Notes under the pieces: generated by a model
What the model was told of the DNA's origin: nothing
Seen by the model: the letters and a program-made list of their open reading frames with translations, nothing else
Databases searched by the model: none
NCBI RefSeq assembly: GCF_036014115.1
Contig: NZ_CP107913.1
Coordinates: forward strand, 9,008,501 to 9,072,500
Length of the DNA stretch: 64,000 bases
Direction: 5' to 3'
DNA from: Streptomyces sp. NBC_00448
Lineage (GTDB): Bacteria > Actinomycetota > Actinomycetes > Streptomycetales > Streptomycetaceae
Position numbers and translations under genes: made by a program
Part shown: piece after piece, positions 22,141-58,684 of the stretch
Numbering within the stretch: the first letter of the stretch is position 1
Layout of the letters: each line of letters starts with the position of its first letter

Positions 22141-22323
22141 TCAGGCCGTGCAGCCGGCGCACAGCGTCGTGTCGCAGCAGCTGAACGACCATTCCCAGCT
22201 CTGGGCGATCATGCCGCCGTGTGCGACGTCGGCGATGTCGATGGAGCTGACGGGGCTGGAGTCGGGCGTCCCGGTGGGGGTGTATTCCTTCCAGGAGCGC
22301 ACGATGTCGTTGTCCATGTCCAT
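22141..22323 (-). CDS. lanA: Class II lanthipeptide precursor, copy 1
   Basis: The 60-residue peptide starts MDMDNDIVRSWKEYTPTG and has an Asp-rich leader of 37 residues ending ADVAHGG, a double-glycine cleavage site. The predicted 23-residue core contains Ser42, Ser46, Ser48, Thr52, Thr53 and Thr59 and cysteines 49, 50, 55 and 58 (core centre WSFSCCDTTLCAGC). AAAGGG precedes ATG 22323. The leader type matches the C39 peptidase in the divergent LanT and the upstream LanM, which should dehydrate and cyclise it. A second copy lies 76 bases upstream. No known lantibiotic ring pattern was recognised. Confidence 0.85.
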   Translation of the reverse strand: MDMDNDIVRSWKEYTPTGTPDSSPVSSIDIADVAHGGMIAQSWEWSFSCCDTTLCAGCTA

Positions 22324-22399
22324 GTGTCGACCCTTTCTGAGGCGGGCCACGCCGCGGGAGTCGCACCGTCGCGATGCGGCCCCCGGCCGGCAGTGGTGA

Positions 22400-22585
22400 T
22401 CAGTGGATGGAGCAGTCGGAGCAGAGCGTCGTGTCGCAGCAGCTGAACGACCACTGCCAGCTCTGGGCGATCATGCCGCCGTGTGCGACGTCGGCGATGT
22501 CGATGGAGCTGACGGGGCTGGAGTCGGGCGTCCCGGTGGGGGTGTATTCCTTCCAGGAGCGCACGACGTCGTTGTCCAAGTCCAT
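22400..22585 (-). CDS. lanA: Class II lanthipeptide precursor, copy 2
   Basis: The 61-residue peptide is nearly identical to copy 1. Leader changes are M3 to L and I7 to V; the core differs at Glu44 to Gln and at the C-terminus (CSDCSIH instead of CAGCTA). The AHGG cleavage site at residues 34-37 and all four cysteines are kept. It lies 122 bases downstream of the LanM gene on the same strand with the same GAAAGGGTCGACAC leader before ATG 22585. Together the two copies could give a pair of related peptides, possibly a two-component product; this is inference. Confidence 0.85.
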   Translation of the reverse strand: MDLDNDVVRSWKEYTPTGTPDSSPVSSIDIADVAHGGMIAQSWQWSFSCCDTTLCSDCSIH

Positions 22586-22707
22586 GTGTCGACCCTTTCG
22601 TTCGTTTCTCTGGTGGTGCCGGATGTGGTGCCGCAACATCGCCGGGAACTCCCGGCGGATGCGCGCTTGCCGACCCGCGGGCCCAGGACGGGGACCGTCC
22701 GCGGATC

Positions 22708-25700
22708 TCAAACCGGTGGAGGCGGCGCCAACAGCAGTACGGGGGCCACCTGTTCGGGCGCGGCGATCCGCAGCAGCCCGTGGCCGATCCCGGCCAGACC
22801 GGTCATCAGCCCCGGCGTCGCGATGCCGCCCGGCGTTCCGCAGACCGGCCCGTCCCGCTCGATCTGCGCCACCGCGGCCGACGCCTCCCGGGACCAGGCG
22901 AGCTGAACCGCCGTGTGGTGTGCGCCATCCGCGCCATCCGCGCCATCCGCGCCGCCCGCGCCATCCGCGCTGACCGACGTCCCCAACGTCCTTGCGGCGG
23001 AGAGCAGTTCGAGGTTCCCCAACGCGCCATGGCACAGGCTGTGGTTGCGGTGCCGGCCGAACCGGGCGGTGCTGTCCAGCGCGCGCCGCAGGTCCGCGAG
23101 GTTCGCCACGAAGGCGGGTGCCTCGGGGGCCCGTGCGTACGCGTGCAGGACCGCGGCCCTGGCCAGGCCGACACCGGGCGCCCCGTGGCACCAGGAGTGC
23201 TGGCTGCTCGGCTCCGCCTTGCGGTGATCCGGCCAGTTGCCCGACCGCGCGTCGTACGCGCCGCGTTCGTAGCCGAACGCGCGCAGGCCCGTGGCGCGCG
23301 CACCCCCGTCACCGGTCCGCGCGGCGTACGACAGCAAGGCCCAGCCGGCGCCCGCGGCACCGTGCGAGAAACCGAGCAGCGGGCGGTGCGCCGTCCCCGG
23401 CCACCCGACACCGTCGCCGGCCGGCACCGCGCCCGCGACGAGCGCCTCGGCGCAGCGTTCGGCCAGCCGGTGCGCGGCCGGCCGGTACGCCGCCCATCCG
23501 TGATCGGACGACAGGGCCTCGGCGACCGCGAGGCAGCCCGCGGTGCCACTGATGACGTCGTGGGCGACGTCCTGCGACACGCGCTCCCGGGCGAGTTCGA
23601 GCAGCGGCGCGACAAGAGCGCGCGCGGACGCGTCGCCGAGCAGCGCGGAACAGCAGGCGAGCGCGTACGCCACCCCGCTCATCCCGGTGAACGCCCCCAC
23701 GATCGCCTCGGCTTCGTGCGCACCGCCGGCGTCGAGCACCTCCCGCGCGTAACCCGCGACCGGGCCGAGGGCTCCCCGGGCGAGGTCGGCGTGGCGGGGC
23801 TCGCCCGTGACATGGGCGAGCTGCGCCAGGAACAGGGCGATGCCCGCGTAGCCGTTGTACAGATCGACGCCCAGCGGCCGCACCGACCAGCGCGACTCCT
23901 GCCAGAGGTCGAGCCCGAGCCAGCCGAGCCGCCCCCCGCTCGCGTACGCCGACGCTTCGAGGCGGTCCGCGACGGCCCGCGCGGCGGACAACGCCCGCTC
24001 GGGCAGGTCCGGTGGCAGGAGGCCCTGCTCGGGCAGGGCCCGGCCGGACCCGGCGGTGTCGCCCGACGGTCCGGGCTCGGCGCCGCTCGTACGCGTGGCC
24101 AGGTGCGCCGCCACGATCCACCGCTGGTCGTCCAGGTCGCGCCCGCCCATCCCGGCCAGGGTGCGCCCGACCAGGGCCGCGCCGGATTCCGGCAGCAGGT
24201 CCGCGAGGACCGCGCCGCCGGCCGTGCGCACGTCACGGGAATCGCCGCGGGCGGTGAACAGCGGGACGTCGCCCGCCCACAGATCGGCCACCTCGTGCCG
24301 GACCAGCCGGGCGCGGGCCGGATCGGTCGCCGCCCTGGCCCACAGCACGCCGAACACCTGGTCCCGGTCGAGCGCGTCGCGCAGCACGTCCGGGTGCGTG
24401 GTCTCGGCGAGCAGCGTGGCGTACTCGTGGGTGGGCCGCGGGATGACACGCGCGAGGTCGCCCGCGAAGGGGGCCAACGGCCCGCCCGGCGCCTGCAGTT
24501 CGCCGGGCGAGGCGGGCGCCTCGCGCGACGTGCGTGCCTCGCTCGTCGGCAACGGCTGTCCTGGGTACAGCAGTTCGCCGCGTCCGGCGGCGATCGCCGC
24601 GTATCCCTCGCGGTAGCCGTCCAGCAGTGGGCCCGCGTACCGCACCGCGTCCAGGTCTGCGCCGTCCAGCCGGGGCCGGTTGTGGACGCTGCCGAGGACG
24701 GGCTGGACCCGGTCCAGGCGCATCGCGTCGGTGCCCGCCCCGGTCCAGTCCACCACCCGGTACGGCAGCGCCGCGTCCTCGTCGCCCCCCATGCCGCCCG
24801 CGTCGAACGCCTGCCCGTCGGCGCCGACCACGACGGAGGGCAGCAGGCCGACCCGGCCCACCGACTCGCGGTACGCCGTCACCGCCGGGTCGCCGTCCAG
24901 GGTCGCGCTGCCGTAGGAGCGGGGCAGGTCGGCGCAGAACAGCGATTCGAGGTCGATCGGGACGGGCTGGTCGCCGACGGCGATCAGGTTCTCGAAGTGG
25001 AAGTCGACGCCGCCCAGGCTGTGCAGGAGCGCGAGCAGCGCGCCCTGGCGGTGGAAGTAGCGCGTCGCGGCGGCGCCGTCCGCGCAGGGCGCCGGCGCGA
25101 CGAACTCGACCCAGCCGTGCTCCCCGCGGTCGACGACGGTCAGGGTCCGCAGCCGGGACGGGCCCGGCAGCCGCCCGTTGTACCAGTCGATCACGTCGTT
25201 GAAGTGGCGGTGCATGCTCAGCGGCCGGGGCTTGTAGACTGCCCGGGCGCCCGAGGCGAAGGTGGCGACGCCCACCGAACGGCCGCCACCGTGCGTGTCG
25301 CCCTTGGCCAGTTCGACGCGGGCGAGGGGGCCCGGGTCGGCGCCGCCGAACAGCCGGCGCACCAGCTCGGGCCGGTCCTGGACGAGCCGCTGGAGGAACT
25401 CGGCGTGGACCGCGGCCACTTGGCCGGCCGCGGCGATCAGCAGACGGGCCAGCACGGCGTACTCGTCGAGCAGTTCGGCGAGCGGCGCGGGGCGGCGGAA
25501 GTGCCGGACGAACGACCAGAAGCGCTCCTCGGGCGCGTCGCCGTCGAGCCGGCCGGTGACGCGCAGGACGTTCAGTTCGAGCACGAGCACCCGGCTGGCG
25601 AGGCGTACGAGACGGCGGGTGACCTCGCCGCGCGCCGCGTCCCTGACCGCCGCGCGGTCCGCGGCGCTTGACGGGCCGACGTTGTCGGTCGCGGCGTCGA

Positions 25701-26229
25701 ACCGGCGCAGCGACTCGTGCACGAACGGCTCGACGACGAAGGCGAAGCCGCGCTGCCAGCTGCCGAGTCGGCCTGCCTCCTGTTGGCCTGCTCCGTGTTG
25801 GCTTCCGCCGGGGGCGGGACGGCCGGCCGGTTCCTCCGCGCCGTGGTCTCCCGTCACCGACGCCGCCACCCGTTCGACGTCCAGGGCCCACGCGGGCTTG
25901 GCCACGCGCTGCGCGAGGCGCTCGGGCGGTTCGGCCAGCAGTGTCCTGAGCTGCCGGGGCGTACCGCCGTACTCGCCCGTCTGGCGGTCGAGCGCGTCCG
26001 CGGCGAGGTCGGCGAAGGCGTCGCGCCAGCGCCGCAGCCGGATGTCGGCCACGGCCGCGGCGTCGTCGCTCTCGGCGTCCCCGTCGTCGGCCTCCGGCCA
26101 CCCGGTGGCGCAGCGCTCGTCGAGGCGGAGCGCCCGGACCCACCAGGCCCCGGTCAGGGCCGGCCGGCCGCGACGCTCCCAGGGCATGGTGAGCGGGCGG
26201 GCAGCGGTCGGCCGGGTCTTCGACGCCAT
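22708..26229 (-). CDS. lanM: Class II lanthipeptide synthetase LanM
   Basis: The 1173-residue bifunctional enzyme dehydrates Ser/Thr and forms thioether rings. The dehydratase part (DUF4135-like, about residues 130-700) has VYKPRPLSMHRHFND and VDFHFENLIA followed by VPIDLESLF, the active-site loops. The LanC-like part holds the zinc ligands in SWCHGAPGVG (about residue 1013) and SLCHGALGNL (about 1065). A (GAD)n stretch near 22920-22975 sits in a loop between these last motifs and the end. ATG 26229 is preceded by GGGAGG. It is divergent from LanT and upstream of the two double-glycine precursors, its probable substrates. Confidence 0.95.
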   Translation of the reverse strand: MASKTRPTAARPLTMPWERRGRPALTGAWWVRALRLDERCATGWPEADDGDAESDDAAAVADIRLRRWRDAFADLAADALDRQTGEYGGTPRQLRTLLAEPPERLAQRVAKPAWALDVERVAASVTGDHGAEEPAGRPAPGGSQHGAGQQEAGRLGSWQRGFAFVVEPFVHESLRRFDAATDNVGPSSAADRAAVRDAARGEVTRRLVRLASRVLVLELNVLRVTGRLDGDAPEERFWSFVRHFRRPAPLAELLDEYAVLARLLIAAAGQVAAVHAEFLQRLVQDRPELVRRLFGGADPGPLARVELAKGDTHGGGRSVGVATFASGARAVYKPRPLSMHRHFNDVIDWYNGRLPGPSRLRTLTVVDRGEHGWVEFVAPAPCADGAAATRYFHRQGALLALLHSLGGVDFHFENLIAVGDQPVPIDLESLFCADLPRSYGSATLDGDPAVTAYRESVGRVGLLPSVVVGADGQAFDAGGMGGDEDAALPYRVVDWTGAGTDAMRLDRVQPVLGSVHNRPRLDGADLDAVRYAGPLLDGYREGYAAIAAGRGELLYPGQPLPTSEARTSREAPASPGELQAPGGPLAPFAGDLARVIPRPTHEYATLLAETTHPDVLRDALDRDQVFGVLWARAATDPARARLVRHEVADLWAGDVPLFTARGDSRDVRTAGGAVLADLLPESGAALVGRTLAGMGGRDLDDQRWIVAAHLATRTSGAEPGPSGDTAGSGRALPEQGLLPPDLPERALSAARAVADRLEASAYASGGRLGWLGLDLWQESRWSVRPLGVDLYNGYAGIALFLAQLAHVTGEPRHADLARGALGPVAGYAREVLDAGGAHEAEAIVGAFTGMSGVAYALACCSALLGDASARALVAPLLELARERVSQDVAHDVISGTAGCLAVAEALSSDHGWAAYRPAAHRLAERCAEALVAGAVPAGDGVGWPGTAHRPLLGFSHGAAGAGWALLSYAARTGDGGARATGLRAFGYERGAYDARSGNWPDHRKAEPSSQHSWCHGAPGVGLARAAVLHAYARAPEAPAFVANLADLRRALDSTARFGRHRNHSLCHGALGNLELLSAARTLGTSVSADGAGGADGADGADGAHHTAVQLAWSREASAAVAQIERDGPVCGTPGGIATPGLMTGLAGIGHGLLRIAAPEQVAPVLLLAPPPPV

Positions 26230-26553
26230 GGGGGCCTCCCTCGTCGCGGTCGGGTAGCTGCCATGAGTCGACCGCTAGGTGCCGTCGCACCGCATGCGCG
26301 TTCACCACCCACATTCGCGCGTGCGCGCCGGGGCGAGGTCCGGCCGCCGCCGGTCGCGGCCGTCAAGGGCGCCGGGTGGGGCGGAACTTGGGTGCTCAGC
26401 ACGCATGTCCGTGCCGCGGGCCGCTGCGATCGTCGATCCCGGTCGCGCCGATCCGGCGCCGATCCGGCGCCCGGCCGGAACCGAGATGCCGCGCCGCGAC
26501 CCACCCGCACGAACGGACGTCACCGGGTGCGTACGACGAGGGAGGAGGGTCTG
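26230..26553. other. Divergent promoter region of the mixed lanthipeptide locus
   Basis: These 324 bases separate LanM from the rightward operon. Promoters for both must lie here, but no clear -35/-10 pair stands out. Sequence is GC-rich without obvious dyads. Confidence 0.4.
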
Positions 26554-26880
26554 GTGCCGACAGTCGACGAGAACGGGCGGAAGCTCCTCGCCCCCGCCCG
26601 CCCGGCACCGCCCGCCGGCCGGTCGAGCGGTGCCCTGCCGAGCCGTGCCCTGCCGGTTCGTCGACGGCCGCCGGTCGCTGGACGGCCGCTGCTTGCCGAA
26701 CGGCCACCGGTCCTCGAACGGCCGCCGGTTCTCGAACAGCCCCTGGCGCTCTGGCAGTTGACGGCGCCGGCCCGGGTCGGCCCCGCCCCACGGCCTGCCG
26801 ACGCGCGGTACGGGTCGCCGCTCCTTCGCGCCGCGCCGGAAAGCGTCACGTCCGCCCTTCCCCTGGAGGAACAGCCATGA
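26554..26880 (+). CDS. Small repeat-containing protein upstream of LanT (hypothetical)
   Basis: A 108-residue reading frame starts at GTG 26554 with GGGAGGAGGG just before it and ends in TGA overlapping the LanT ATG (ATGA), the same junction used between LanT and the next gene. The middle has five tandem hexapeptides of the type VLERPP, encoded by 18-base units at 26656-26745. There are no cysteines, no signal peptide and no membrane segment. Third positions are mostly G/C, as in coding DNA here. I do not recognise the family; the ribosome site and overlap argue that it is translated, and it may be only a leader that couples LanT translation. Confidence 0.45.
   Translation: MPTVDENGRKLLAPARPAPPAGRSSGALPSRALPVRRRPPVAGRPLLAERPPVLERPPVLEQPLALWQLTAPARVGPAPRPADARYGSPLLRAAPESVTSALPLEEQP
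26656..26745 (+). repeat. Five 18-bp tandem repeats
   Basis: Imperfect units at 26656, 26674, 26692, 26710 and 26728 follow the pattern GTCCTCGAACGGCCGCCG. The length keeps the frame of the small protein at 26554, giving a proline/arginine hexapeptide repeat. Confidence 0.75.
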
Positions 26881-29159
26881 GCCTCCCCCCGTTCGCGCGT
26901 CGCCTCCTTCCGGCCCGGCGGGTCCCGTTGCGCGTCCAGCTGACCAGGACCGAGTGCGGCGCCGCGTGCCTGGCGATGGTGCTCAGCTTCCACGGCCGGC
27001 AGACGTCGGTGCCCGAGAGCCGCGCGCGCCTGGAGATGGGGCGCGACGGGGTCTCCGCCGGCGAGATCGCGCGCGCTGCCGAGACGTTCGGGCTGCGGGT
27101 GACGCTGGACACCTCCGACGACGCGTGGGCGCGACCGCGGAGCGGGCCGACGATCGCGTACCTGTCCCGCCACCACTTCGTCGTGGTGGCCAAGGTGTCG
27201 GGCTCCCACGTCTGGATCGCCGACCCCGGCGCCGGGCGGCGCCGGCTGCCCCGCGCCGAGTTCGCCGAGGGCTACGGCGGGGTGCTGCTCCGCTTCGCAC
27301 CGGGCCCGGACTTCGCCCACCGCCGGTCGGCGGTCCGGGACCTGCCGATGGTGCGCTACCTGCGGCAGTTCGTCGCCATGCCGGGCGGGCGGCGCCGGCT
27401 CGCGCTCGCCGCGCTGCTCGCCGCCGGCCTGCAGGGGCTGGGGCTGGCCGCGCCGATGGCGACCAGGGCCATCGTGGACTCGGTCATCCCCGGCCACCGT
27501 GTGGGCTCGCTCGGCTTCTTCCTCGTGGCCGCGGTGGGCGTCGCGGTGCTGTGCGGGGTGCTCGCCGCGGCCCGCGGCCTGGCGATGCTCGCCCTGCGGG
27601 TGCGCGGGGACCAGCGGCTGAGCCGGGAGTTCGTGACGCATCTGTTCGCCCTGCCGCTCGGCTTCTTCGGCGACCGGGGCCGAGGCGACCTGCTGATGCG
27701 CCTGGCGAGCGTGTCGTCGACCCGGGAGGCGCTGACCCAGCAACTGCTCACCACCGTCCTCGACGGCTGCCTGCTCTCCGGGTACGTCATCGGCCTGCTG
27801 GTGACCGCGCCGCTGTTCGCCGTGGCCGTGGTCCCGCTGTTCGTGCTCCAACTCGCCGTCGTCACGGGCAGCTACCGCAAGACGCGGATTCTCGCGCAGC
27901 GGGAGCTGGCGGCCAAGACCGAGGAGCAGGGCTACCTCGTGGAGGCCCTCGAAGCGATCAGCGCGCTGAAGGCCAACGGCGTGGAGCGGCGCGCCACCGC
28001 CCGCTGGGAGCGGCTGTTCACGACGTACCAGACGGCCAGCGCGCACCGCGGCCGATGGACCGCCTGGCTGACCGGTGCCCAGAAGGGCCTGAGCATGTTC
28101 GGGCCGCTGGCGCTGCTCTGGCTGGGGGCGTGGCTGGTGCTCACCCACCGGATGAGCGTCGGCACCATGCTCGCCGACAACGCGATCGCGCTGTCCGTCC
28201 TCAGCCCCATCGAGACGTTCGCCAACTCCGGCCAGATGTACCAGGGCATCAGGGCGCAGGTCGAGCGGGTCTTCGACGTCCTCGACGCCCCGCGCGAGCG
28301 GTCCGGCACCGTCCGGCTGCCCGCGGCGGCGTCCTCGGCGATCTCCCTGAGCGACGTCGCGTTCCGCTACCCGGGAGGCCGCCGCCCGACGCTGGAGGAC
28401 ATCACCTTCACCGTCGCCGCCGGGCGGAAGACGGCGATCGTCGGCCGGACCGGCTCGGGCAAGAGCACGCTCGGCGGGCTGCTGCTCGGCCTGCACCTGC
28501 CCGAGCGCGGCGAGATCCGGCACGACGGTGTCGCGCTGGCCGACCTGGACCTGCCGGACCTGCGCGCGCACTGCGGCGCCGTCCTGCAGGACCTGACCCT
28601 GTTCGACGGTTCGATCCGGGACAACCTGGTGCTCAGCAGACCGGACGCCGGACTCGACGAGATCGTCAGGGCGGCGCGGCTGGCCGGGCTGCACGACGAC
28701 GTCGCCGCCCTGCCGATGGGCTACGACACGGCGGTGGGCGAGGGCGGCACCGGGCTGTCGGCGGGCCAGCGCCAGCGGGTCGCGCTCGCCCGCGCACTGA
28801 TCCACCGGCCGCGGCTGCTGCTGCTCGACGAGGCGACCAGCCACCTCGACCCCGAGACCGAGCGCCGGGTCGACGCGGCGCTCAGCGAACTGTCCATCAC
28901 CCGCGTCGTCATCTCGCACCGCATCAACGCGGTCCGCAACGCCGACCAGATCATCGCGCTGGAGCGCGGCCGGATCGTCCAGCGCGGCGACCACCGCCGG
29001 CTGATCGCGCAACCGGGCGTCTACCGGGATCTGTTCGGCCACGACGAGGCGGCCGGCGCGGACCCCGGCCCGCACCCCGACTTGGCGGCGCCCGCAGCTG
29101 GTGCGGCCCCCGATCTGGCGGCACCCACCGCCGGCCGCCGCGTGGAGGTCACCTCATGA
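26877..29159 (+). CDS. lanT: LanT: C39-peptidase ABC exporter
   Basis: The 760-residue exporter cleaves double-glycine leaders and pumps the peptide out. The C39 peptidase (residues 1-135) has Cys27 in TRTECGAACLAM and the His/Asp pair in RHHFVVVAK and VWIADPGAG, so it looks active. The membrane domain spans about 150-440. The nucleotide-binding domain has Walker A GRTGSGKST (about residue 522), the signature LSAGQRQRVALARAL and Walker B LLLLDEATSHLD. A Pro/Ala-rich tail of about 35 residues follows. ATG 26877 has GGAGGA upstream. Its natural substrates are the AHGG precursors on the other strand; the class III precursors downstream have no such site. Confidence 0.95.
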   Translation: MSLPPFARRLLPARRVPLRVQLTRTECGAACLAMVLSFHGRQTSVPESRARLEMGRDGVSAGEIARAAETFGLRVTLDTSDDAWARPRSGPTIAYLSRHHFVVVAKVSGSHVWIADPGAGRRRLPRAEFAEGYGGVLLRFAPGPDFAHRRSAVRDLPMVRYLRQFVAMPGGRRRLALAALLAAGLQGLGLAAPMATRAIVDSVIPGHRVGSLGFFLVAAVGVAVLCGVLAAARGLAMLALRVRGDQRLSREFVTHLFALPLGFFGDRGRGDLLMRLASVSSTREALTQQLLTTVLDGCLLSGYVIGLLVTAPLFAVAVVPLFVLQLAVVTGSYRKTRILAQRELAAKTEEQGYLVEALEAISALKANGVERRATARWERLFTTYQTASAHRGRWTAWLTGAQKGLSMFGPLALLWLGAWLVLTHRMSVGTMLADNAIALSVLSPIETFANSGQMYQGIRAQVERVFDVLDAPRERSGTVRLPAAASSAISLSDVAFRYPGGRRPTLEDITFTVAAGRKTAIVGRTGSGKSTLGGLLLGLHLPERGEIRHDGVALADLDLPDLRAHCGAVLQDLTLFDGSIRDNLVLSRPDAGLDEIVRAARLAGLHDDVAALPMGYDTAVGEGGTGLSAGQRQRVALARALIHRPRLLLLDEATSHLDPETERRVDAALSELSITRVVISHRINAVRNADQIIALERGRIVQRGDHRRLIAQPGVYRDLFGHDEAAGADPGPHPDLAAPAAGAAPDLAAPTAGRRVEVTS

Positions 29160-31789
29160 GCGTCGACGTGTTCACCTTCGCCGATCCCGACTTCTACCTG
29201 CCGCCGTCCGCGGTCGCGGACCGCGCGCCCCACCTGCGGCCGGGGACCGTACCGCCGGACTGGACCGCCGCGATGACCGGGTGGTGGACCCAGTGGACGC
29301 CCGACGGCGGGCGGCGGTTCGGGGCGGGCGACCTGCGCGTCCACGCCTCCGCGCACCCCGAACAGCTCCAGCCGGCGCTGGACGCCTTCGCCGCGGCCTG
29401 CTTCGCGCGCGGCATCCCCTTCCGGCACGTCGCGAACCGGAGCGTCCACCGCCATCTGAACCACCCGCGCGGCTCGCGGGCGCAGGCGGGCAGGTTCTGC
29501 GTCGCCGCCCCCGCCGACGCGGCCTCCTCGGAGGACCTGCTGCGGGCGCTGCGCACGGCCGCGGTCTTCGAGGCCGGGCCGGCGGGGGCGGCAGAGGCGC
29601 AGCACCAGGGCCCGTCGTTCGTACGGCCCGGCCGCGTCCCCTCCCCGGCCGCGTCCGCGATCCGCCCGGACGGCACGCGGGCCACCGAGGACTATCTGAT
29701 GGACGGCCCCGCGCCCACCCCCGTGCCACCCGAGGGCTTCGAGGTACGGCGGCTCAAGGCGGCCTCCACCGCCGGATATGCGTACACCGCGCGCAACGTG
29801 CTCGACGGCTCCGAGATCTTTGTCAAGCAGGCGTTCCCGCACGCCGGGCCGACCGAGAACGGGGGCACGGCGGCCGATCGGCTGCGCGCGGAGTGGCGGG
29901 CGCTGACCCTGATCCACAAGGAGGCGCCCGGCCTGTGCCCGCGCCCGCTGGTCTTCGTCGCGGGGCGTCAATACCCGTATCTGCTGGCCGAGTTGGTGGA
30001 GGGAGTGCCGCTGACCTCCTGGGTGGTCGCGAACAGCCCGCTGGCCGACCCGGCCGCGTCGGCGGGCGACTGGGCGCGCTACCACCGGCGGGCGGCGGAC
30101 CTGATGGCCCGGATCGAGCGCGACCTGCACCGCCTGTGGCTCCTCGGCCGGCCGGTGGACCGCGTCGAGGCGCGCGACGTCCTCGTCGACGGTGACGACG
30201 GCATCCGGTTGACCGGCGGTTTCGTCGGCGCGGGCATCGGCAGCGGCCCGGACGGTGACGGTGACGGTGACGGTCCCGGTGAGGGCGCCGGTGACAGCGC
30301 CGGTTCCGGTGGCGCCCGACGGGGGAGCACGGACGGTCCGGCCGCGACCGCCGCCCGCCTGGGGCTGCTCCTGCTGACGCCGCTGGCGCCGTCGGCCGAG
30401 CGGAACCCGGGCGCCTTGGCGCACCTCCTGCGCGACCTCACCGAACGCGGCCCGGTGCCGCCGGAGCTGTGGCGCCGGGCGACCCGCTCGGCCGGATCGT
30501 CCGTGACCGCGGCGGCCACCGCCGCGCTCCCCACCCCCGAACAGGTCGACGCCGACGAGCGCAAGGCCCTCACCGAGCTGCGCGACCGCGTCGCGGCGGG
30601 CATCGTGGACGCGGCGGCCGACCGTCCCTGGGGCGTCTTCCCCACCGTCCCGCAGGGCTACGAGACCAACACGCTCGGCGTGGCCTACGGCACCGCCGGC
30701 GTGGTGCACGCCCTGCGCAGGTCCGGGGTGGACGTCCCCGACTGGATCACCCGGCGGCTGCGCGAGGACGCGCTGGCGCAGGCCGACTCCCTTCCGCCCG
30801 GGCTCTGTTCGGGCCTGGCCGGCATCGCCTGGGTGCTGGCCGACCTCGGGTGCCATGACGAGGCGGGCGCCCTGCTCGGCGTGGCGGACCGCCATCCGCT
30901 GACCCGCGACTCGGCCACCCTCGCGTGGGGCGCCGCGGGCGTCGCCATGGCGCACCTGGCCCTGTACGGGCACAGCCGCGACGAGCACCACCTCGACCGC
31001 GCCCTGGAGTTGACGAGCCTGCCCGAGCGGCCGGCCGCGCTGAGCGCACGGCTCGGCCCGCACGACATGACCGGCCTGTGCTACGGACGCACCGGGATCG
31101 CCCACGCCCTCCAGCAGGTGGCGGCCGTCACCGGCGAGGACCGCCTGCGGCGTGACGGCGTCCGGCTGCTGCACGCGGAACTCGACCGGGCCCGGGAGTC
31201 GGGGACCGGCGAACTCGTCTTCCCGGTCTCCGCGAAGGACCGCAGGGGCATGTACTACCTGCACTGCGGCACCGCCGGCTTCCTCACCGTGGCCGCCCGC
31301 CACCTGGCCGCCGCACCGGACGAGCGGCTGGCGATGGCCGTACCGAAGCTCGTGGCGAAGTCGTCGATCACGTACGTGGCGCACGCCGGGCTCTTCCAGG
31401 GGCTGGCGGGACTGGGGTTCGCCCTGGCCGAGTGCGGCCGGCTGCTCGACGACGCGCGGGCGCGGGCCGCCTCGTGGAAGTCGGCGCGCACCCTGTTCGC
31501 CCACGCGCGGCCCAGCGGCGACGGCGTCCGCTTCCTCGGCGACCTGCGGCTGCGCCACAGCTGCGAGTTGTGGAGCGGAGCCTCCGGTGTCCTGCTCTTC
31601 CTCTCGCACCTGCTCGACCAGCGCCCCGACCCGCTCTTCAGCGTCGACTCCCTCGCGCGCGGCACCGGTTCACCGTCCCCCGCCCGCCGCGCCGGCCACC
31701 CGGCCCCCGCCGCCCGCCGCGCCGTCACGCCGGCCCCGGCGCGCACCCCCCAGATGTCCGCCCGTCACCCGACGGCGCGGAAGCCGTGA
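29156..31789 (+). CDS. LanKC-like protein with degenerate kinase and lyase sites
   Basis: The 877-residue protein overlaps LanT by ATGA and aligns end to end with the LanKC at 32028. Lyase-region lysines of the partner are arginine here (FKHV becomes FRHV; GKLVV becomes GRFCV). In the kinase the nucleotide lysine is kept (EIFVKQAF, about residue 223), but the catalytic loop GDVSPGNVLV is replaced by VDRVEARDVLV and the metal-binding VDFE by LTGGF. A Gly/Asp linker (residues 360-390) stands where the activation segment should be. The cyclase domain retains GLCYGRTG (about 641) and YLHCGTAG (about 702), that is Cys and His/Cys at the LanC zinc positions. I infer a pseudokinase that may supply cyclase or scaffold function to its neighbour. 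Confidence 0.85.
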   Translation: MSVDVFTFADPDFYLPPSAVADRAPHLRPGTVPPDWTAAMTGWWTQWTPDGGRRFGAGDLRVHASAHPEQLQPALDAFAAACFARGIPFRHVANRSVHRHLNHPRGSRAQAGRFCVAAPADAASSEDLLRALRTAAVFEAGPAGAAEAQHQGPSFVRPGRVPSPAASAIRPDGTRATEDYLMDGPAPTPVPPEGFEVRRLKAASTAGYAYTARNVLDGSEIFVKQAFPHAGPTENGGTAADRLRAEWRALTLIHKEAPGLCPRPLVFVAGRQYPYLLAELVEGVPLTSWVVANSPLADPAASAGDWARYHRRAADLMARIERDLHRLWLLGRPVDRVEARDVLVDGDDGIRLTGGFVGAGIGSGPDGDGDGDGPGEGAGDSAGSGGARRGSTDGPAATAARLGLLLLTPLAPSAERNPGALAHLLRDLTERGPVPPELWRRATRSAGSSVTAAATAALPTPEQVDADERKALTELRDRVAAGIVDAAADRPWGVFPTVPQGYETNTLGVAYGTAGVVHALRRSGVDVPDWITRRLREDALAQADSLPPGLCSGLAGIAWVLADLGCHDEAGALLGVADRHPLTRDSATLAWGAAGVAMAHLALYGHSRDEHHLDRALELTSLPERPAALSARLGPHDMTGLCYGRTGIAHALQQVAAVTGEDRLRRDGVRLLHAELDRARESGTGELVFPVSAKDRRGMYYLHCGTAGFLTVAARHLAAAPDERLAMAVPKLVAKSSITYVAHAGLFQGLAGLGFALAECGRLLDDARARAASWKSARTLFAHARPSGDGVRFLGDLRLRHSCELWSGASGVLLFLSHLLDQRPDPLFSVDSLARGTGSPSPARRAGHPAPAARRAVTPAPARTPQMSARHPTARKP

Positions 31790-31814
31790 AGTCCCGACAG
31801 ATCAGGAGAGACCC

Positions 31815-31928
31815 ATGAGCCAGGTGCTGAACCTCCAGGAGATGGAAATCCCGGCCCCCGACCAGCAGCAGGAGGTAGAGGGCAGCTACTTCATCTGCAG
31901 CGACGCCAGCTGGTTCCTCTGCGCGTGA
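31815..31928 (+). CDS. lanA: Class III lanthipeptide precursor with one labionin motif
   Basis: The 37-residue peptide starts MSQVLNLQEMEIPAPD, with the hydrophobic LxLQ leader motif typical of class III precursors. The C-terminal part SYFICSDASWFLCA contains Ser29-x2-Ser32-x3-Cys36, the labionin signature, and Ser24-x3-Cys28 for a further ring. ATG 31815 has AGGAGAG upstream. It lies between the two LanKC genes, 25 bases after the first and 99 before the second. There is no double-glycine site, so leader removal probably uses another protease. Confidence 0.88.
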   Translation: MSQVLNLQEMEIPAPDQQQEVEGSYFICSDASWFLCA

Positions 31929-32027
31929 GGCACTGCCGGGGCGGCGCGTCCGTGACACGCGTCGCCCCGGCCCCCCGCGGGCGGACGGCCCACCTGCTCA
32001 CCCACGTCCGGGAAACGCGAGGCAGCA

Positions 32028-34691
32028 ATGATCGAACAGACCTATGCGATGGCCGACCCCGACTACTACCGGCCCGTCGAGACCCTCGCGGACCGCGGCC
32101 GGGAGTACGCCCCGTCGAAGGTCCCGGACGGCTGGCAGTCCTTCGACCACTACCTGTGGCGGTCCTGGGGGCGCAAGGGCCGGCCGATGCCCGACCAGGG
32201 CTGGAAGGTGCACGTCTCGGCCCGCGCCGACCGGATCGCCGACGTCCTCGACGTGGTCGCCGACGAGTGCTTCGCGCGCGGCATCCCCTTCAAGCACGTC
32301 GCGGCCACGCGTTTCGTGCTGCTGCTCCAGCACAAGCACGCCTCCCGCACGCAGAGCGGCAAACTCGTGGTCGCCTACCCGGCCGACGAACGGGCCGCCC
32401 GGACGCTGATGGGCGCGCTCGCCGCGCGACTGGAGTCCGAGCAGGGGCAGTTCATCCTCACCGACCGCCGCTTCGGCGACTCCCAGGTGGTCCACTACCG
32501 CTACGGCTCCTTCACGCCCCGGCGCCGGCTCCAGCCGGACGGCACCGGCACGCCGGTGCTGCGTGACGGTCGCGGCCGGATCGTCACCGACCGCCGCGAG
32601 CCGAGGTTCCACCTGCCCGAGGGGATCACCGACCCGTTCGCGCCGGACAGCGCGCCCGACGACACGGGGACCGACTTCCACGGCTTCGCCTTCGACCACG
32701 CCGTCCGGCACAGCAACGGCGGCGGGACCTACGCCGGCCGCGAACTCGCCACCGGCCGGAAGGTCTTCATCAAGGAGGCCCGCGACCACACCGGGCTCTC
32801 CTGGGACGGCCTGACCGCCGTCGAGCGCACCCGGCGCGAGTGGGACACCCTGCGGGCGCTGCACGACGCGCACCCCGGGATCTGCCCCGAGCCGATCGCG
32901 TACTTCCGCGAGTGGGAACACGAGTTCCTGGTCACCGAGTTCATCGAGGGCATGACGCTCAACTCCTGGGTGGTCGCCCGCAGCCCGGTGACCCAGGTGG
33001 AGGCGCGGCGGCCGGACTTCGACCGGTACACCGCCGACTGCGAGGCGGTCGTCGCGTCGCTGGCGGAGCAGGTGCGGGTCCTGCACGCGCTGGGGTACCT
33101 CTTCGGCGACGTCAGCCCCGGCAACGTCCTGGTCGGCGACGGCGACCAGCCGCGCCTGGTGGACTTCGAGGCGGCGCGCGGGCTGCGGGACAAGGGCGTC
33201 TCGGTGGCCACCGACGGATACGCGCCCCCCGCCCACCTGGTGCAGGACGACCCGGCGGTCCAGGACGACTACGGCATCTCGGCGCTGGTCCGGCTGATGC
33301 TCGGCCCGACCTTCGCCACGGCGGACCGCTACCCCCGCTCGCTGGAGCACCTGCGGGCCGACCTCCAGGAGAGGATGGCCGTGCCCCCGGCGCTGTGGGA
33401 GCGCGCGGTCCGCTACCACCCGGCCGACGGCCCGGAACTGCTGCCGGGCCCGCGGGAGGTGGCGGCCGACCCGGTACGCCACCTCCGCGATCTGCGCGAC
33501 AAGGTCGCGGACGCCCTGACCTCGATGGCCGACCCGGACCGCGCGGACACCCTCTTCCCGACCATCCCCGACGGGTACGCCAGCAACACCGTGTGCGTCG
33601 CCTACGGTTCCGCGGGTGTCCTGCACGCGCTGCGGCACAGCGGCGTCACCGTGCACGAGGACCTCGTCGCACGCTTCCGCCGCGACGCGCTGGCCACCGC
33701 CGGGAGCCTGCCGCCGGGGCTGCACGTCGGGCTGGCCGGCGTCGCCTGGGTGCTGGCCGACCACGGATACCTCGACGAGGCGCGCGACCTGCTCGCCGCC
33801 GCGACCGAGCACCCGCTGACCGGCCGGCGGGCCGGCTTCGCCGAAGGCGCGGCCGGGGTGGCGATGACCCACCTGTCGCTCTTCGAGCACACCGGCGACC
33901 ACCGGCACGTCGACACCGCCGAGCGCCTGCTGTCCGCGCTGCCGGCGGACGGGGAACTGGCCGGACTGCTGGCGCCCGACGACCCGACCGGATGGCTGCA
34001 CGGCAGGTGCGGCATCGCCTGGGCGCTCCACCCGCTCGCCGCGGTCACCGGGGACACCGGCCATCTCGACCGCGGGGTGCGGCTGCTGCACCACGAGTTG
34101 GACCGGGCGATGCCCGCCGCGTCGGCGTCGCCGCACTTCCCGCTCTCCGCCACCGACCGCCGGTCGATGCCGTACCTGTTCAGCGGCACCGCCGGAATCC
34201 TGCGCGCGGTCTGCCGCTACACCACCGTCTGCGCGGACGAGCGCCTCGCCGCCGTCGAGAGCGACCTCCTGCCGCGGCTGCGCACCACGTACACGGTCAT
34301 GCCGGGCCTGTACCAGGGCCTGGCCGGGCTGGGCTTCGCGCTCGCCGACCACGCGGCCGTCAGCGGCGACGAGGCATCCGCCCGCTCCGCGCTGCGCACC
34401 GCCCGGGCCCTGTTCAAGTACGCGGTCCCCGGCGCCACCGGCGTCAGGTTCCACGGCGAGAAGCTCAAGCGGTTCAGCGCGGACCTGTGGAGCGGCGGCG
34501 CGGGCGTCCTGCTCTTCCTCGACCAGGTGCTCGGCGCGGGCCAGGACCGGCTGTTCAGCCTCGACCGGCTGAGCGCGCGCCACCGCGCGGCTGCTACGGC
34601 ACCGGCCGCCACCGACCCCCGCGCCGACGACGGCACGGGACGCAACCGACACGACCCCTCCCACGGAAAGAGCGGACCATGGACCAAGTGA
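32028..34691 (+). CDS. lanKC: Class III lanthipeptide synthetase LanKC
   Basis: The 887-residue trifunctional enzyme phosphorylates Ser/Thr, eliminates phosphate and cyclises. The N-terminal lyase region has GWKVHVSA, GIPFKHVAATR and SGKLVVAYP with the basic residues expected. The kinase has VFIKEAR (Lys about 248), the Glu of RREWDTLRAL, the catalytic loop LFGDVSPGNVLV (about 361) and VDFEAARG (about 379), all intact. The cyclase region has GWLHGRCG and YLFSGTAG, lacking the zinc ligands, as usual in class III. Its end overlaps the next precursor start by 13 bases. It should modify the precursors at 31815 and 34679. Confidence 0.93.
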   Translation: MIEQTYAMADPDYYRPVETLADRGREYAPSKVPDGWQSFDHYLWRSWGRKGRPMPDQGWKVHVSARADRIADVLDVVADECFARGIPFKHVAATRFVLLLQHKHASRTQSGKLVVAYPADERAARTLMGALAARLESEQGQFILTDRRFGDSQVVHYRYGSFTPRRRLQPDGTGTPVLRDGRGRIVTDRREPRFHLPEGITDPFAPDSAPDDTGTDFHGFAFDHAVRHSNGGGTYAGRELATGRKVFIKEARDHTGLSWDGLTAVERTRREWDTLRALHDAHPGICPEPIAYFREWEHEFLVTEFIEGMTLNSWVVARSPVTQVEARRPDFDRYTADCEAVVASLAEQVRVLHALGYLFGDVSPGNVLVGDGDQPRLVDFEAARGLRDKGVSVATDGYAPPAHLVQDDPAVQDDYGISALVRLMLGPTFATADRYPRSLEHLRADLQERMAVPPALWERAVRYHPADGPELLPGPREVAADPVRHLRDLRDKVADALTSMADPDRADTLFPTIPDGYASNTVCVAYGSAGVLHALRHSGVTVHEDLVARFRRDALATAGSLPPGLHVGLAGVAWVLADHGYLDEARDLLAAATEHPLTGRRAGFAEGAAGVAMTHLSLFEHTGDHRHVDTAERLLSALPADGELAGLLAPDDPTGWLHGRCGIAWALHPLAAVTGDTGHLDRGVRLLHHELDRAMPAASASPHFPLSATDRRSMPYLFSGTAGILRAVCRYTTVCADERLAAVESDLLPRLRTTYTVMPGLYQGLAGLGFALADHAAVSGDEASARSALRTARALFKYAVPGATGVRFHGEKLKRFSADLWSGGAGVLLFLDQVLGAGQDRLFSLDRLSARHRAAATAPAATDPRADDGTGRNRHDPSHGKSGPWTK

Positions 34692-34825
34692 TCGCCCTGC
34701 AGAGCCTGCCCGACGCACCCCGGCACGACCCCGCCCCCGAGAACGGGGAGATCGCGATCTCCGAGCTGAGCTTCGCGATCTGCGGACCGTTCCCCAGCGA
34801 GTTCAGCGTCAGCGTCTGCATCTGA
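34679..34825 (+). CDS. lanA: Class III lanthipeptide precursor with two labionin motifs
   Basis: The 48-residue peptide starts MDQVIALQSLPDAP with the class III leader motif (IxLQ). The C-terminus holds two Ser-x2-Ser-x3-Cys motifs: SELSFAIC (residues 28-35) and SEFSVSVC (40-47), separated by GPFP. This spacing is what labyrinthopeptin-type enzymes convert into two labionin rings. The start codon lies inside the last codons of LanKC, with GGAAAG ahead, so translation is coupled. No double-glycine site is present. Confidence 0.9.
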   Translation: MDQVIALQSLPDAPRHDPAPENGEIAISELSFAICGPFPSEFSVSVCI

Positions 34826-46240: not shown

Positions 46241-49200
46241 TCACGAGGCCGGCGACTGCAACAGCAGTACCGAGGGAACACGGGAAGCGAAGCCGAGTTG
46301 CAGCAACGCGTGCCCGATGCCGGCCAGGCCGGTCAGCAGCCCCGGGCTGCTGACGGAGTCGGGTGTCCCGCAGCGCGGGCCGAACCGGTCCAGCGCGGCC
46401 AGCAGCGCGGCCGCGCGGGGCAGGGCCGCGCCGGGCCGGGCACGGCCCGCGCGGGACGCGGCGAGGAGGAGGTCGAGGGCTCCCGCCTCGCCGTGGCAGA
46501 GGCTGTGGTCGCCCGCGGTCGGCGCGGCGCCGCGCGCGACCACGAGATCCAGGAGCGCGGCCAGCTCGGGGACGTCCGCGGCGGCTGCGCTGCCGGCGAT
46601 CGCCAGCGCGGTGCCCGAGAGTTCGTCGCACCAGCCGGTCCCGACCGGGGCCGTCGCGCACCGGGCCGCCGCCGTACGCAGCGCGGCAAGGCCGGCCGCC
46701 GCGTATGCGGCTCCGCCGCCGGTCGCGGTGTGTCCGGGTCCGCCGCCCGGAGTCGTGTGTCCGGGCTGGCCGTTGGCCCTCGCGTGCCCGGGCTGGCTGC
46801 CGGTCGCGGTGTGCCCGGGTGTGCCGCCGGTCGCGGTGTATCCGGGTGTGCCGCCAAGTGCCGCGTGTCCGGGTCCACTACCGGTCGCCGTGGACCCGTG
46901 CTCGCTGCCAGATGCCGCGTGTCCGGGTCCGCCGCCGATCGCGGCGTGTCCGGGCTGGCCGCCAGGTGCCGTGTGCCCGGGTCCGCTGCCGGTCGCGGCG
47001 TGTCCGGGCGCGTCGCCGGCTGCCGCGAACCGCAGCAGCGCCCAACCGACGCCGGCGGCCCCGGTGCTGAAGCCACCGGCCGGCAGGGCGTCGGGTGCGT
47101 GGGCGGCGAGACGGTCGGCGCAGGCCCGCGCGACGCGGCCCGCCGCCGCCGACCCGGTGGCCCGCTGCACGGCGACCATCGCCGCCAGGCAGCCGGCGTC
47201 GCCGTCGAGGACCCCGGGCTGCGGGCTCGCACCGGCCGCGGCCGCGGCCAGGTCGACCGTCGCCGCGGCCCAGCCGGCGATCTCCGCGTCGTCCAGCAAG
47301 GCGGCGAGCCGGCTGAGCGCGTAGGCGATCCCGCCAAGGCCCGCGAAACCCGCGCCGATGGCGGGCAGGTCGGCCGGCCGGTCGGCCAGTGAGGTGAGCA
47401 GGCCCGGCAGCGGGGCCAGCGCGCGCCGCGCGACCGAGGTGTACCGCTCGGTGCCGGTGAGGTCGGCGAGCTCCGCCAGGAAGAGCGCGGTGCCGCAGTA
47501 GCCGTGCGGCAGTCCGGCGCCCAGCGGCTGGACCGCCCAGATCCGGTCGTCCAGGGGCTCCAGGCCCAGCCAGTTGACCCGCCGGCCGTCGTCCTGGGCG
47601 CTGGCCAGGATGCGGTCGGCTATGCCGCAGGCGGTCGCCAGCAGCCGCTCGGCGTCGGGCACGGTGGCGGCCGGCAGGCCGGGCGGCGCGACGGCGGCGC
47701 GCGGTCCGCCTTCGCGGCGCCGGGTCGCGAGCGTGGCGCGGATCATCCACTCCTGGTCGAAGCGGTCCGTCTCGCCCATCGCCGCGATCCGGCGCTCGGC
47801 CCGGGCCAGGCCGCACCCGGTGACCAGGCCGTCGACCGTCAGCGGGCCGACCGCCAGCTCCGTCGTCCCGGGGGAGCAGGCGGCCACGGGGACGTCCCCC
47901 GCCCACAGTTCGGCCAGCTCGGCGCCGACCAGCGCGCGCAACCCCGGGCCGCCGGCCGATTCGCGCCACAGAGTGTCGAGGAGCCGGTCCCGGTCGAGCG
48001 CGTCGCGCAGGACGTCGGGATGGGTGGACTCGTCCAGCAGGATCGCGTACGAGCGGGTGGGACGGACCACCGCCCGCGTCACATCGTGCGTGAAGCGGGC
48101 CAGCAGGCCGCCGGGGCCGGTGAGTTCCGTACGGTGGCCGGCGATCACGTCGTAGCCCGCCCGGAAGCCGGCGACGAGGGAATCCGCGTGGAGGGCGGGG
48201 TCGGCCTCGGCGTCGCGCAGCAGCGGCCGGTTGGCCGAGCCGCGGAACACCCCCACGGTCCGGATCAGTCGCATCTCGTCCGTGCCGGGCGCCGACCAGC
48301 CGGTCACCTCGCCGGGCAGCGGGGTGTCCCGGTCGCCGCCGAGACCGGAGACGTCCAGCACGCCGTGCTCGCCGACCAGGAAGAACGGCAGCAGCGCGGT
48401 CCGCGCGACCGACGCCGTCAGCACCGCCTGCGCCGGGTCGCCGCCCGCCGGCCCGGACAGGTCCGGGTGGAAGAGCGTCTCCAGGTCCACCAGGACGGGC
48501 TGGTCGGCGCAGGCGATCAGGTTCTCGAAGTGCATGTCGGTGGCGCCGAGCGCGTGGATCAGTGCCAGCAGCGCGCCGAGCCGCCAGTAGAACCGGCCCA
48601 CCTCGGCCGGGCCCGCGCAGGGTGCGGCCGCGGCGTACTCGACCCAGCCGTAGCCCGAGCGTTCGAGCACGGCCAGATCGCGCAGATCCAGGCCGTCCAG
48701 GCGGGAGTTGAGCCAGCGGACGGTGTCGTTGAAGTGCCCGTGCACGGTGACCGGGCGGGGCTTGAACACCACCCGGGCGCCGTGTTCGAAGGACAGTACG
48801 GCGACCGCCCGTCCGCCCTGGTGGCGGTCGCCGGCGCTCGTGTCCACCTGGACCAGCGGGCCGGGGTCGACGCCGGCGAGGAGACCGTCGACCAGTGCGG
48901 TCCGGTCGGCGGCCAGCCGCCGCAGCAACTCGGTCCAGGTCTCCACGGCCTGGTCGCAGGCCTGCGCCAGCAGCCGTGCCAGGACCGGGTACTCGGTGAC
49001 CAGGGCGCGCAGTCCCGCCCGTGCCGAGGTCTGCCGGACGAAGTCGCGGAACCGGCCTTCCGGAGTGCTGCCGCGCAGCCGCTCGCGCACTCTCAGGACG
49101 TTGAGTTCGAGCACCAGGGTCCGCCGGGCGAGCTGCACGAGCGCCCGGCCCAACCCGTCGGTGAAGCAGCCGCGGAGCGCCTTCTGGTCGGTCAGCCCGG

Positions 49201-49588
49201 CAAGGCCGTACCGGTCGACCGCCCGCAGCAGCCGCGTGGCCGCCGTCTCGGTGAACGGCGCGAGCACCGTGGCGAAGCCCGCCGACCACGAGCCGCCGGC
49301 CGGCAGCGGCGGGTCGAGCGGAGCGCACGCCAGCGCGTCCTCGACCGTGCCGACCCAGTCGGGCCTTTCGATCCGGCCGGCCAGGGCCGCGGGCTCCTCG
49401 GCGAGCAAGGCGCACAGGCCGTCCTCGTCCAGCCCCCGGTCCGCCAGCCGGGCCCGCAGCAGCGCGGGCGAGGAGTAGTCGGACCGCCAACTCTCCGCCA
49501 GGCCGTGGGTGCCGGCGGATATCGGGGGCGGCGGCAGCCGCTCGGCCAGGGCCACGCCGCCGGTCCACCACGTCTGCGGATCGATCAC
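46241..49588 (-). CDS. lanM: Class II lanthipeptide synthetase LanM with repeat insert
   Basis: The protein of about 1115 residues has a DUF4135-type dehydratase domain (VVFKPRPVTVHGHFND; TDMHFENLIA followed by VLVDLETLFHPDL) and a LanC-like domain with zinc ligands in TGWCDELSG and SLCHGEAG; the first site lacks the usual His-Gly after Cys. Residues about 860-958 are eleven tandem 9-residue repeats of the type GPGHTATGG, placed in a loop between two LanC helices. GTG 49588 is chosen because AGGA lies upstream; GTG 49618 is an alternative with the ribosome site too close. Its likely substrate is the downstream HPAG-type precursor. No dedicated LanT is adjacent. Confidence 0.92.
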   Translation of the reverse strand: MIDPQTWWTGGVALAERLPPPPISAGTHGLAESWRSDYSSPALLRARLADRGLDEDGLCALLAEEPAALAGRIERPDWVGTVEDALACAPLDPPLPAGGSWSAGFATVLAPFTETAATRLLRAVDRYGLAGLTDQKALRGCFTDGLGRALVQLARRTLVLELNVLRVRERLRGSTPEGRFRDFVRQTSARAGLRALVTEYPVLARLLAQACDQAVETWTELLRRLAADRTALVDGLLAGVDPGPLVQVDTSAGDRHQGGRAVAVLSFEHGARVVFKPRPVTVHGHFNDTVRWLNSRLDGLDLRDLAVLERSGYGWVEYAAAAPCAGPAEVGRFYWRLGALLALIHALGATDMHFENLIACADQPVLVDLETLFHPDLSGPAGGDPAQAVLTASVARTALLPFFLVGEHGVLDVSGLGGDRDTPLPGEVTGWSAPGTDEMRLIRTVGVFRGSANRPLLRDAEADPALHADSLVAGFRAGYDVIAGHRTELTGPGGLLARFTHDVTRAVVRPTRSYAILLDESTHPDVLRDALDRDRLLDTLWRESAGGPGLRALVGAELAELWAGDVPVAACSPGTTELAVGPLTVDGLVTGCGLARAERRIAAMGETDRFDQEWMIRATLATRRREGGPRAAVAPPGLPAATVPDAERLLATACGIADRILASAQDDGRRVNWLGLEPLDDRIWAVQPLGAGLPHGYCGTALFLAELADLTGTERYTSVARRALAPLPGLLTSLADRPADLPAIGAGFAGLGGIAYALSRLAALLDDAEIAGWAAATVDLAAAAAGASPQPGVLDGDAGCLAAMVAVQRATGSAAAGRVARACADRLAAHAPDALPAGGFSTGAAGVGWALLRFAAAGDAPGHAATGSGPGHTAPGGQPGHAAIGGGPGHAASGSEHGSTATGSGPGHAALGGTPGYTATGGTPGHTATGSQPGHARANGQPGHTTPGGGPGHTATGGGAAYAAAGLAALRTAAARCATAPVGTGWCDELSGTALAIAGSAAAADVPELAALLDLVVARGAAPTAGDHSLCHGEAGALDLLLAASRAGRARPGAALPRAAALLAALDRFGPRCGTPDSVSSPGLLTGLAGIGHALLQLGFASRVPSVLLLQSPAS
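46715..47011 (-). repeat. 27-bp tandem repeats encoding 9-residue units in LanM
   Basis: Eleven in-frame 27-base units code for GPGHTATGG-like peptides (for example GPGHTAPGG, QPGHAAIGG, TPGHTATGS). The His is kept in most units; the fifth (EHGSTATGS), seventh (TPGYTATGG) and ninth (QPGHARANG) are the most diverged. The array preserves the frame of the synthetase. Confidence 0.9.
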
Positions 49589-49621
49589 GCCCGCGATCCT
49601 GCCATCGATGGCCCGCACCTC

Positions 49622-58328: not shown

Positions 58329-58448
58329 CTATTCGGTGAGGGTGCAGGTGGCGGGGCAGGAGTAGGTGCTGCACGTCCAGGTGCACTCCATCTCCGTGGT
58401 GTCCTCGCCGCCGGGGAGCAGTTCCAGCGCGTCGATGTCGGAGTTCAT
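58329..58448 (-). CDS. lanA: Class IV lanthipeptide precursor 2
   Basis: The 39-residue peptide starts MNSDIDALELLPGGEDTTEM; AAGGAG precedes ATG 58448. Its core ECTWTCSTYSCPATCTLTE has cysteines at 22, 26, 31 and 35, again with Thr/Ser before Cys26, Cys31 and Cys35 and Thr after Cys35. A GG at residues 13-14 is inside the leader and is not kept in the others, so it is unlikely to be a cleavage signal. Confidence 0.85.
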   Translation of the reverse strand: MNSDIDALELLPGGEDTTEMECTWTCSTYSCPATCTLTE

Positions 58449-58477
58449 GGGTTTCTCCTTCTGGGTGGTGGTGGTGC

Positions 58478-58606
58478 TCAGTTGGTGGAGGTACAGGTCT
58501 CTCCGCCGCAGGTCTGGCCGTAGCCGCAGGTGACGGTGCACAGCATCTGCGTGGTCGGCTCCTGCTCGGCCGGCAGGGCCTGCAGGGCGTCGATGTCGAT
58601 GTCCAT
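58478..58606 (-). CDS. lanA: Class IV lanthipeptide precursor 1
   Basis: The 42-residue peptide starts MDIDIDALQALPAEQE with AGGAGG upstream of ATG 58606. Its core LCTVTCGYGQTCGGETCTST has cysteines at 23, 27, 33 and 38; Thr precedes the last three. The loop between cysteines is longer than in copies 2 and 3. It lies 78 bases downstream of the LanL gene. Confidence 0.85.
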   Translation of the reverse strand: MDIDIDALQALPAEQEPTTQMLCTVTCGYGQTCGGETCTSTN

Positions 58607-58684
58607 GGGTTCCTCCTCTCGGGGTGGCGTGGTGTGCGGGGTGGCCGCGTGCCGTCGCGGGCACGCGGGCGGTTCCCTCCGCGG

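Follow-up and report, generated by a model that had tools for sequence, protein, structure and literature searches.

A conserved LanKC homologue with degenerate dehydration domains beside an intact class III lanthipeptide synthetase in Streptomyces

Genes and precursors of the locus

The window analysed here is a stretch of 64,000 nucleotides from Streptomyces sp. NBC_00448. It contains two LanKC homologues in tandem, KC1 and KC2, which are 41% identical to each other and lie at 29156-34691, where the initial annotation had placed such a pair (Table 1). The ATG of KC1 overlaps the stop codon of an upstream ABC transporter gene, a relative of which is present in one of three orthologous clusters (L033) within the flanks examined. 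Other lanthipeptide genes surround the class III pair (22141-26229, 46241-49618, 58329-61525) and make the window a lanthipeptide island. A precursor-like ORF at 22141-22350 accompanies one of two class II LanM genes, and another, MNSDIDALELLPGGEDTTEMECTWTCSTYSCPATCTLTE, accompanies a class IV LanL gene at 58685-61525. Relatives of several of these island genes also occur close to KC1/KC2 in other species.

Table 1. Features of the class III locus, in coordinates of the window
Feature	Position	Strand	Remark
Peptidase C39-type ABC transporter ORF	26376..29159	+	true start probably ~26.87 kb
KC1, LanKC homologue, 877 aa	29156..31789	+	degenerate lyase and kinase, conserved cyclase domain
KC1 lyase remnant, aa 26-180	29231..29695	+	
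KC1 pseudokinase, aa 195-455	29738..30520	+	
Gly/Asp-rich linker in place of the KC1 activation segment, aa 356-395	30221..30340	+	poorly conserved among orthologs
KC1 LanC-like cyclase domain, aa 492-832	30629..31651	+	without a zinc triad
Precursor A1, MSQVLNLQEMEIPAPDQQQEVEGSYFICSDASWFLCA, 37 residues	31815..31928	+	between KC1 and KC2
KC2, complete class III LanKC, 887 aa	32028..34691	+	
A2, second precursor-like ORF, SapB-like, two SxxSxxxC motifs	34679..34825	+	overlaps the end of KC2

The precursor A1 has a class III-type leader and a core with an SxxxC followed by an SxxSxxxC motif, and its C-terminal end is Cys-Ala. Two rings are predicted from this sequence, one from Ser24 to Cys28 and one from the lanthionine/labionin motif Ser29-Ser32-Cys36. 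Three class III-type precursors occur in a row downstream of a single LanKC at L061:5909-6586 (MTQVLLLQELA..., MVQVLLLQELA..., MTQILELQELD...).

When 35 genomes of the genus were searched with a profile, KC1 was present in four, namely this window, L033, L056 and L034. The order KC1-A1-KC2 is common to these four species, which are related soil bacteria of one genus, and A1 sits between the two synthetase genes in each cluster with the core GSYFICSDASWFLCA (GSWFIC... in L034). A2 was seen in this window only and was not found in the clusters of L033, L056 and L034. The wider family (395 genomes) was covered by the A1 motif only: the DNA pattern for CSDASWFLC occurs in exactly four of the 395 genomes, the KC1 carriers, once each, and a reversed-pattern control gave no match among the matches listed. 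Short peptide patterns run against a GTDB contig collection yielded no KC1 ortholog and one distant LanKC, and a plasmid collection yielded distant LanKCs only, which were taken as outgroups. In another family of the order we observed a tandem LanKC pair (L035:7209-12331) in which both copies keep the HRD, DFE and lyase residues.

The KC1 reading frame is open in three of the four species. In L034 the frame is broken between the lyase remnant and the pseudokinase (L034:7190-7220), at a G run that is one base short. The break presents a TGATG overlap with GGGAGG upstream, and the downstream part of the gene is open and conserved; either an assembly error or true gene fission may explain it.

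Catalytic residues and predicted structure

The dehydration domains of the two proteins differ in their match to the LanKC family. Against the NCBIfam LanKC model NF038151 (cut-off 575), KC2 scores 721.4 bits, above the family threshold, and KC1 scores 387.5 bits, below it. KC2 matches the Pfam Pkinase profile and a Pfam kinase match is absent from KC1. From KC2 to KC1 the kinase residues change from D361 to R336, from N366 to D341 and from D379 to G354, consistent with the loss of the catalytic Asp/Asn and the DFG-type Asp that the initial annotation had read by eye. Across the four KC1 orthologs the HRD Asp is replaced by R, G, G and A, the Asn by D and the DFE Asp by G. The alignment also bears out the substitution of a Gly/Asp linker for the activation segment. 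The KC1 pseudokinase retains the VAIK Lys224 and the αC Glu246. Among 71 other LanKCs surveyed (see below), ten otherwise intact ones have Arg in place of the VAIK Lys (L066, L067, L070, L073, L076, L089, L090, L091, L121 and L125).

In the lyase domain the Lys to Arg changes described earlier for KC1 were recovered at three positions (K60, K89 and K112 in KC2 numbering), and a fourth Lys (K103) is replaced by Pro. The C-terminal half of the domain, the region of ThurKC D152, R163 and R191, is gone from KC1, a loss that the initial annotation had missed. Expressed on the ThurKC lyase set (K65, H67, K94, K108, K117, D152, R163, R191), the KC1 orthologs carry R, H/Y, R, P and R, followed by deleted or substituted positions. 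Single substitutions in this set are severe in ThurKC (PMC10604976): turnover is abolished by K65A and by R163A, the K94A variant yields unmodified peptide, and with K108A no dehydro residues are formed.

In an alignment with 13 other LanKCs, KC2 and three KC2 orthologs included, KC1 and its orthologs deviate at 43 columns where the others vary little or not at all. About 40 of these columns fall in the lyase and kinase domains or in the post-kinase linker, and the 3 in the cyclase are all conservative. The same dehydration losses are present in the three further species, with the lyase part readable in two, and none of 71 other LanKCs, picked by family-score rank and hence biased to intact enzymes, had lost any of nine catalytic positions (0/71). 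Because the losses recur in three more species and in none of the 71 surveyed enzymes, they go beyond chance. KC2 keeps all ten catalytic sites checked and agrees with class III LanKCs in family score, kinase, lyase and zinc-free cyclase, as expected from the earlier reading that the second copy keeps its kinase and lyase residues. KC1 falls outside the class on score, kinase and lyase, and agrees with it in its zinc-free LanC-like cyclase. Comparison at these positions supports the view that KC1 cannot be a dehydratase and that KC2 can be.

An AlphaFold2 model of KC1 built from four sequences has a middling mean pLDDT of 60.7 and is read here for fold, not for active-site geometry. Its pseudokinase fits the kinase domain of CurKC (Z = 19.2, 224 residues aligned, 2.6 Å), its cyclase is helical, and its best whole-chain matches are LanL and LanKC enzymes, with full-length matches at an rmsd of ~11 Å. 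The model is disordered at the C-terminal remnant of the lyase (aa 138-187) and at the linker (aa 355-392).

The KC1 cyclase domain matches Pfam LANC_like. In ThurKC, S726, F770 and D771 occupy the positions of the NisC zinc ligands C284, C330 and H331 (PMC10604976). At these positions KC2 has F718, Y762 and Q763 (HMMER alignment to ThurKC) and KC1 has H703, F747 and Q748 (HMMER KC2-ThurKC alignment combined with a KC1-KC2 alignment). The Cys and His-Cys that had been assigned to zinc positions in the first copy thus lie elsewhere. The LCYG motif with Cys642 sits in LanC repeat 4, at the NisC H212 position and not in a zinc-ligand repeat; among KC1 orthologs Cys642 is Tyr, Phe or Trp, and His703 is Tyr in one. 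KC2 orthologs and one single-copy LanKC share the repeat-5 Cys (C704 in KC1, the LHC-type position). Because the proposed Cys and His-Cys fall one LanC repeat early and the residues vary in orthologs, we conclude from the alignments that the zinc site is absent from KC1. The KC2 cyclase is of the usual class III type without zinc, in which the absent ligands are the class norm and not a loss, and it is under constraint like that of KC1; the notion of a complementary loss of active sites in the two copies therefore does not hold.

At the position of NisC His212 and ThurKC Asp667, KC1 has Tyr and KC2 has His. Judged by this Tyr, cyclase catalysis could be lost from KC1, but in single-copy outgroup LanKCs the same position is Tyr in L014 and Leu or Thr in two others. 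Of 80 cyclase residues invariant in four outgroup LanKCs, KC1 retains 53 and KC2 54.

Constraint on the domains of KC1

Comparison of the four orthologs of each protein revealed a different pattern of conservation in each domain. Cyclase identity is 85.1% for KC1 and 85.2% for KC2, with nominal dN/dS values of 0.28 and 0.29, computed by the Nei-Gojobori method on GC-rich genes and for comparative use only. The lyase is 72% identical among KC1 orthologs and 86% among KC2 orthologs, and the kinase N-lobe 67% and 89%. The start of the C-lobe, the former catalytic loop (KC1 aa 283-355, 30002-30220), is 84% identical in KC1 and 74% in KC2, and the pseudo-catalytic segment ARDVLVDG...LTGG within KC1 is strongly conserved. 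In every KC1 domain tested dN/dS is less than 1, the value for the lyase remnant being 0.47 (interval 0.32-0.70). On the stem branch the lyase and kinase give 1.94 for KC1 against 0.47 for KC2 (~4-fold), and the cyclase gives 0.55 against 0.44. The longest invariant run of KC1 (aa 685-710) is in the cyclase, and further conserved segments are the N-terminal helix (aa 1-12) and the remnant lyase at aa 100-121.

These patterns support the view that selection has retained KC1 mainly through its cyclase domain. A constrained domain is not by itself evidence of catalysis. The KC2 cyclase is equally conserved, and KC1 is therefore not needed merely as a supply of cyclase. The better preservation of the C-lobe start in KC1 than in the active KC2 suggests that the pseudokinase has a non-catalytic or new role as well. 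The leader-contact residue Trp302 of ThurKC corresponds to W296 in KC2 and to R, P, R and G in the KC1 orthologs, and with this residue replaced KC1 by itself probably fails to capture A1; the Trp302 equivalent is also not universal in outgroup LanKCs.

A probable division of labour and its alternatives

A division of labour between KC1 and KC2 is likely on these comparisons. The form of it that we consider, on balance, somewhat probable is that KC2 carries out dehydration and that KC1, a retained partner of cyclase type without a metal, works in trans on the same precursor. The serines of A1 would be phosphorylated and eliminated by KC2 in the usual LanKC way. KC1, which would derive from the same group of synthetases and have lost both dehydration activities, would then act on the KC2-dehydrated A1, either within a complex or by hand-over. 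Its LanC-like domain would most likely close one of the A1 rings, or fix the site or stereochemistry of closure, and its remnant lyase and pseudokinase would probably act as a scaffold for docking, perhaps within a KC1-KC2 heterodimer. We infer catalysis by KC1, the assignment of a ring to it and formation of the complex. As a more tentative extension, the pair may form a heteromeric class III synthetase in which the zinc-free cyclase and the pseudokinase of a dehydration-dead LanKC direct the site or stereochemistry of a ring that the active LanKC alone does not make. The initial annotation had proposed a split enzyme with one partner for dehydration and the other, possibly zinc-bound, for cyclisation or scaffolding. 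Of that proposal a likely division of labour survives, and zinc-bound cyclisation does not.

The main rival is a purely structural role, which we regard as possible but doubtful: KC1 would be a catalytically dead scaffold or allosteric subunit that forms a heterodimer with KC2 and positions A1 or sets processivity or selectivity, without closing a ring. All three KC1 domains depart at least partly from the catalytic consensus, and conservation of ARDVLVDG...LTGG, the first helix and the aa 100-121 segment would fit such a subunit. So would the dimer-forming LanKC subclass of a 2024 Nat Commun paper, as cited in PMC12291118, the two-chain PneKC and SalKC PDB entries among the structural matches, and the ThurKC cyclase mutants that alter dehydration (PMC10604976). 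However, the cyclase is the KC1 domain that is constrained like its active homologue, and its repeats 5 and 6 are among the longest invariant runs, which a mere scaffold would not need.

It is very unlikely that KC1 is a pseudogene on its way out after tandem duplication, a reading that would account for the accelerated lyase and kinase halves and for the frame break in L034. Frameshifts in close homologues had been named in advance as a sign of decay; one of the three orthologs has such a break, possibly an assembly error, and the frames of the other two are open. A dN/dS below 1 in every domain tested, the conserved gene order with A1 and KC2, and a cyclase constraint equal to that of KC2 also stand against it, and we reject the pseudogene reading on conservation; on the sequence comparison KC1 is not decaying. 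We consider it highly improbable that the synthetases divide their substrates, KC1 taking A1 and KC2 taking A2. The window does hold two precursors, one beside each synthetase, but KC1 cannot dehydrate, and KC1 and KC2 persist with A1 only in the three other clusters; with A2 confined to the window this reading is rejected. Finally, that KC1 is the zinc-bound cyclase lacking in KC2 is scarcely credible and is rejected by the structure-based numbering and the orthologs, as the Cys642 and His703/Cys704 present in the window sequence belong to the wrong LanC repeats, vary in orthologs or, for the repeat-5 Cys, are shared by KC2 orthologs, and class III cyclases are metal-free.

The locus can be set beside several known systems. 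With the class III LanKCs (ThurKC 8sam/8sao/8sap, PneKC, SalKC, CurKC) KC1 shares the lyase-kinase-cyclase order, the overall fold and the zinc-free LanC-like domain, and A1 has the SxxSxxxC core and LanKC-type leader of their precursors; KC2 is a full member of the class. Unlike these enzymes, KC1 has no kinase or lyase catalysis, has lost half of its lyase domain, scores below the family cut-off, and adjoins an intact LanKC in all four genomes. By analogy, RosX of class V is the nearest precedent for ring formation that involves a dead kinase fold. RosX and TvaE(S-87), in which the kinase fold has no kinase catalytic residues, function as AviCys cyclases (PMC12291118). Like KC1 they have a kinase fold stripped of catalytic and Mg-binding residues and stand beside an active kinase and lyase. 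RosX differs in that it is described as a cyclase built on the kinase fold and makes AviMeCys with a cysteine decarboxylase, whereas KC1 keeps a LanC domain; KC1 has the catalytically empty kinase fold of this type, but A1 ends in Cys-Ala and not in Cys, a comparison of the precursor end only. The class V dehydratase pairs LxmK/LxmY and RosK/RosY are separate polypeptides that work as a complex in maturation, as KC1 and KC2 may do. They divide kinase and lyase between two proteins, whereas KC2 carries both domains and KC1 is an extra three-domain homologue, so the locus does not encode a split dehydratase. NisC of class I would resemble KC1 in function, as a trans-acting cyclase for a peptide that a second protein has dehydrated, but NisC needs zinc (C284, C330, H331) and KC1 has no such triad and bears vestigial N-terminal domains.

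The LanKC family is known, and in the literature searched no example was found of this arrangement, in which a conserved LanKC dead for dehydration adjoins an intact one. That search, which covered few subscription papers, returned no paper joining LanKC with "pseudokinase" and, in the titles and abstracts listed, no tandem pair with one inactive LanKC. Some genome-mining schemes demand a kinase match for class III (PMC7268733), and under them KC1-like proteins would stay unclassified. How a LanKC transfers its peptide between three active sites and how it chooses between lanthionine and labionin are still-open questions (PMC10604976). KC1 would offer a natural cyclase partner from which dehydration has been removed, and with a short precursor and only two predicted rings the activities of this system would be separable gene by gene.
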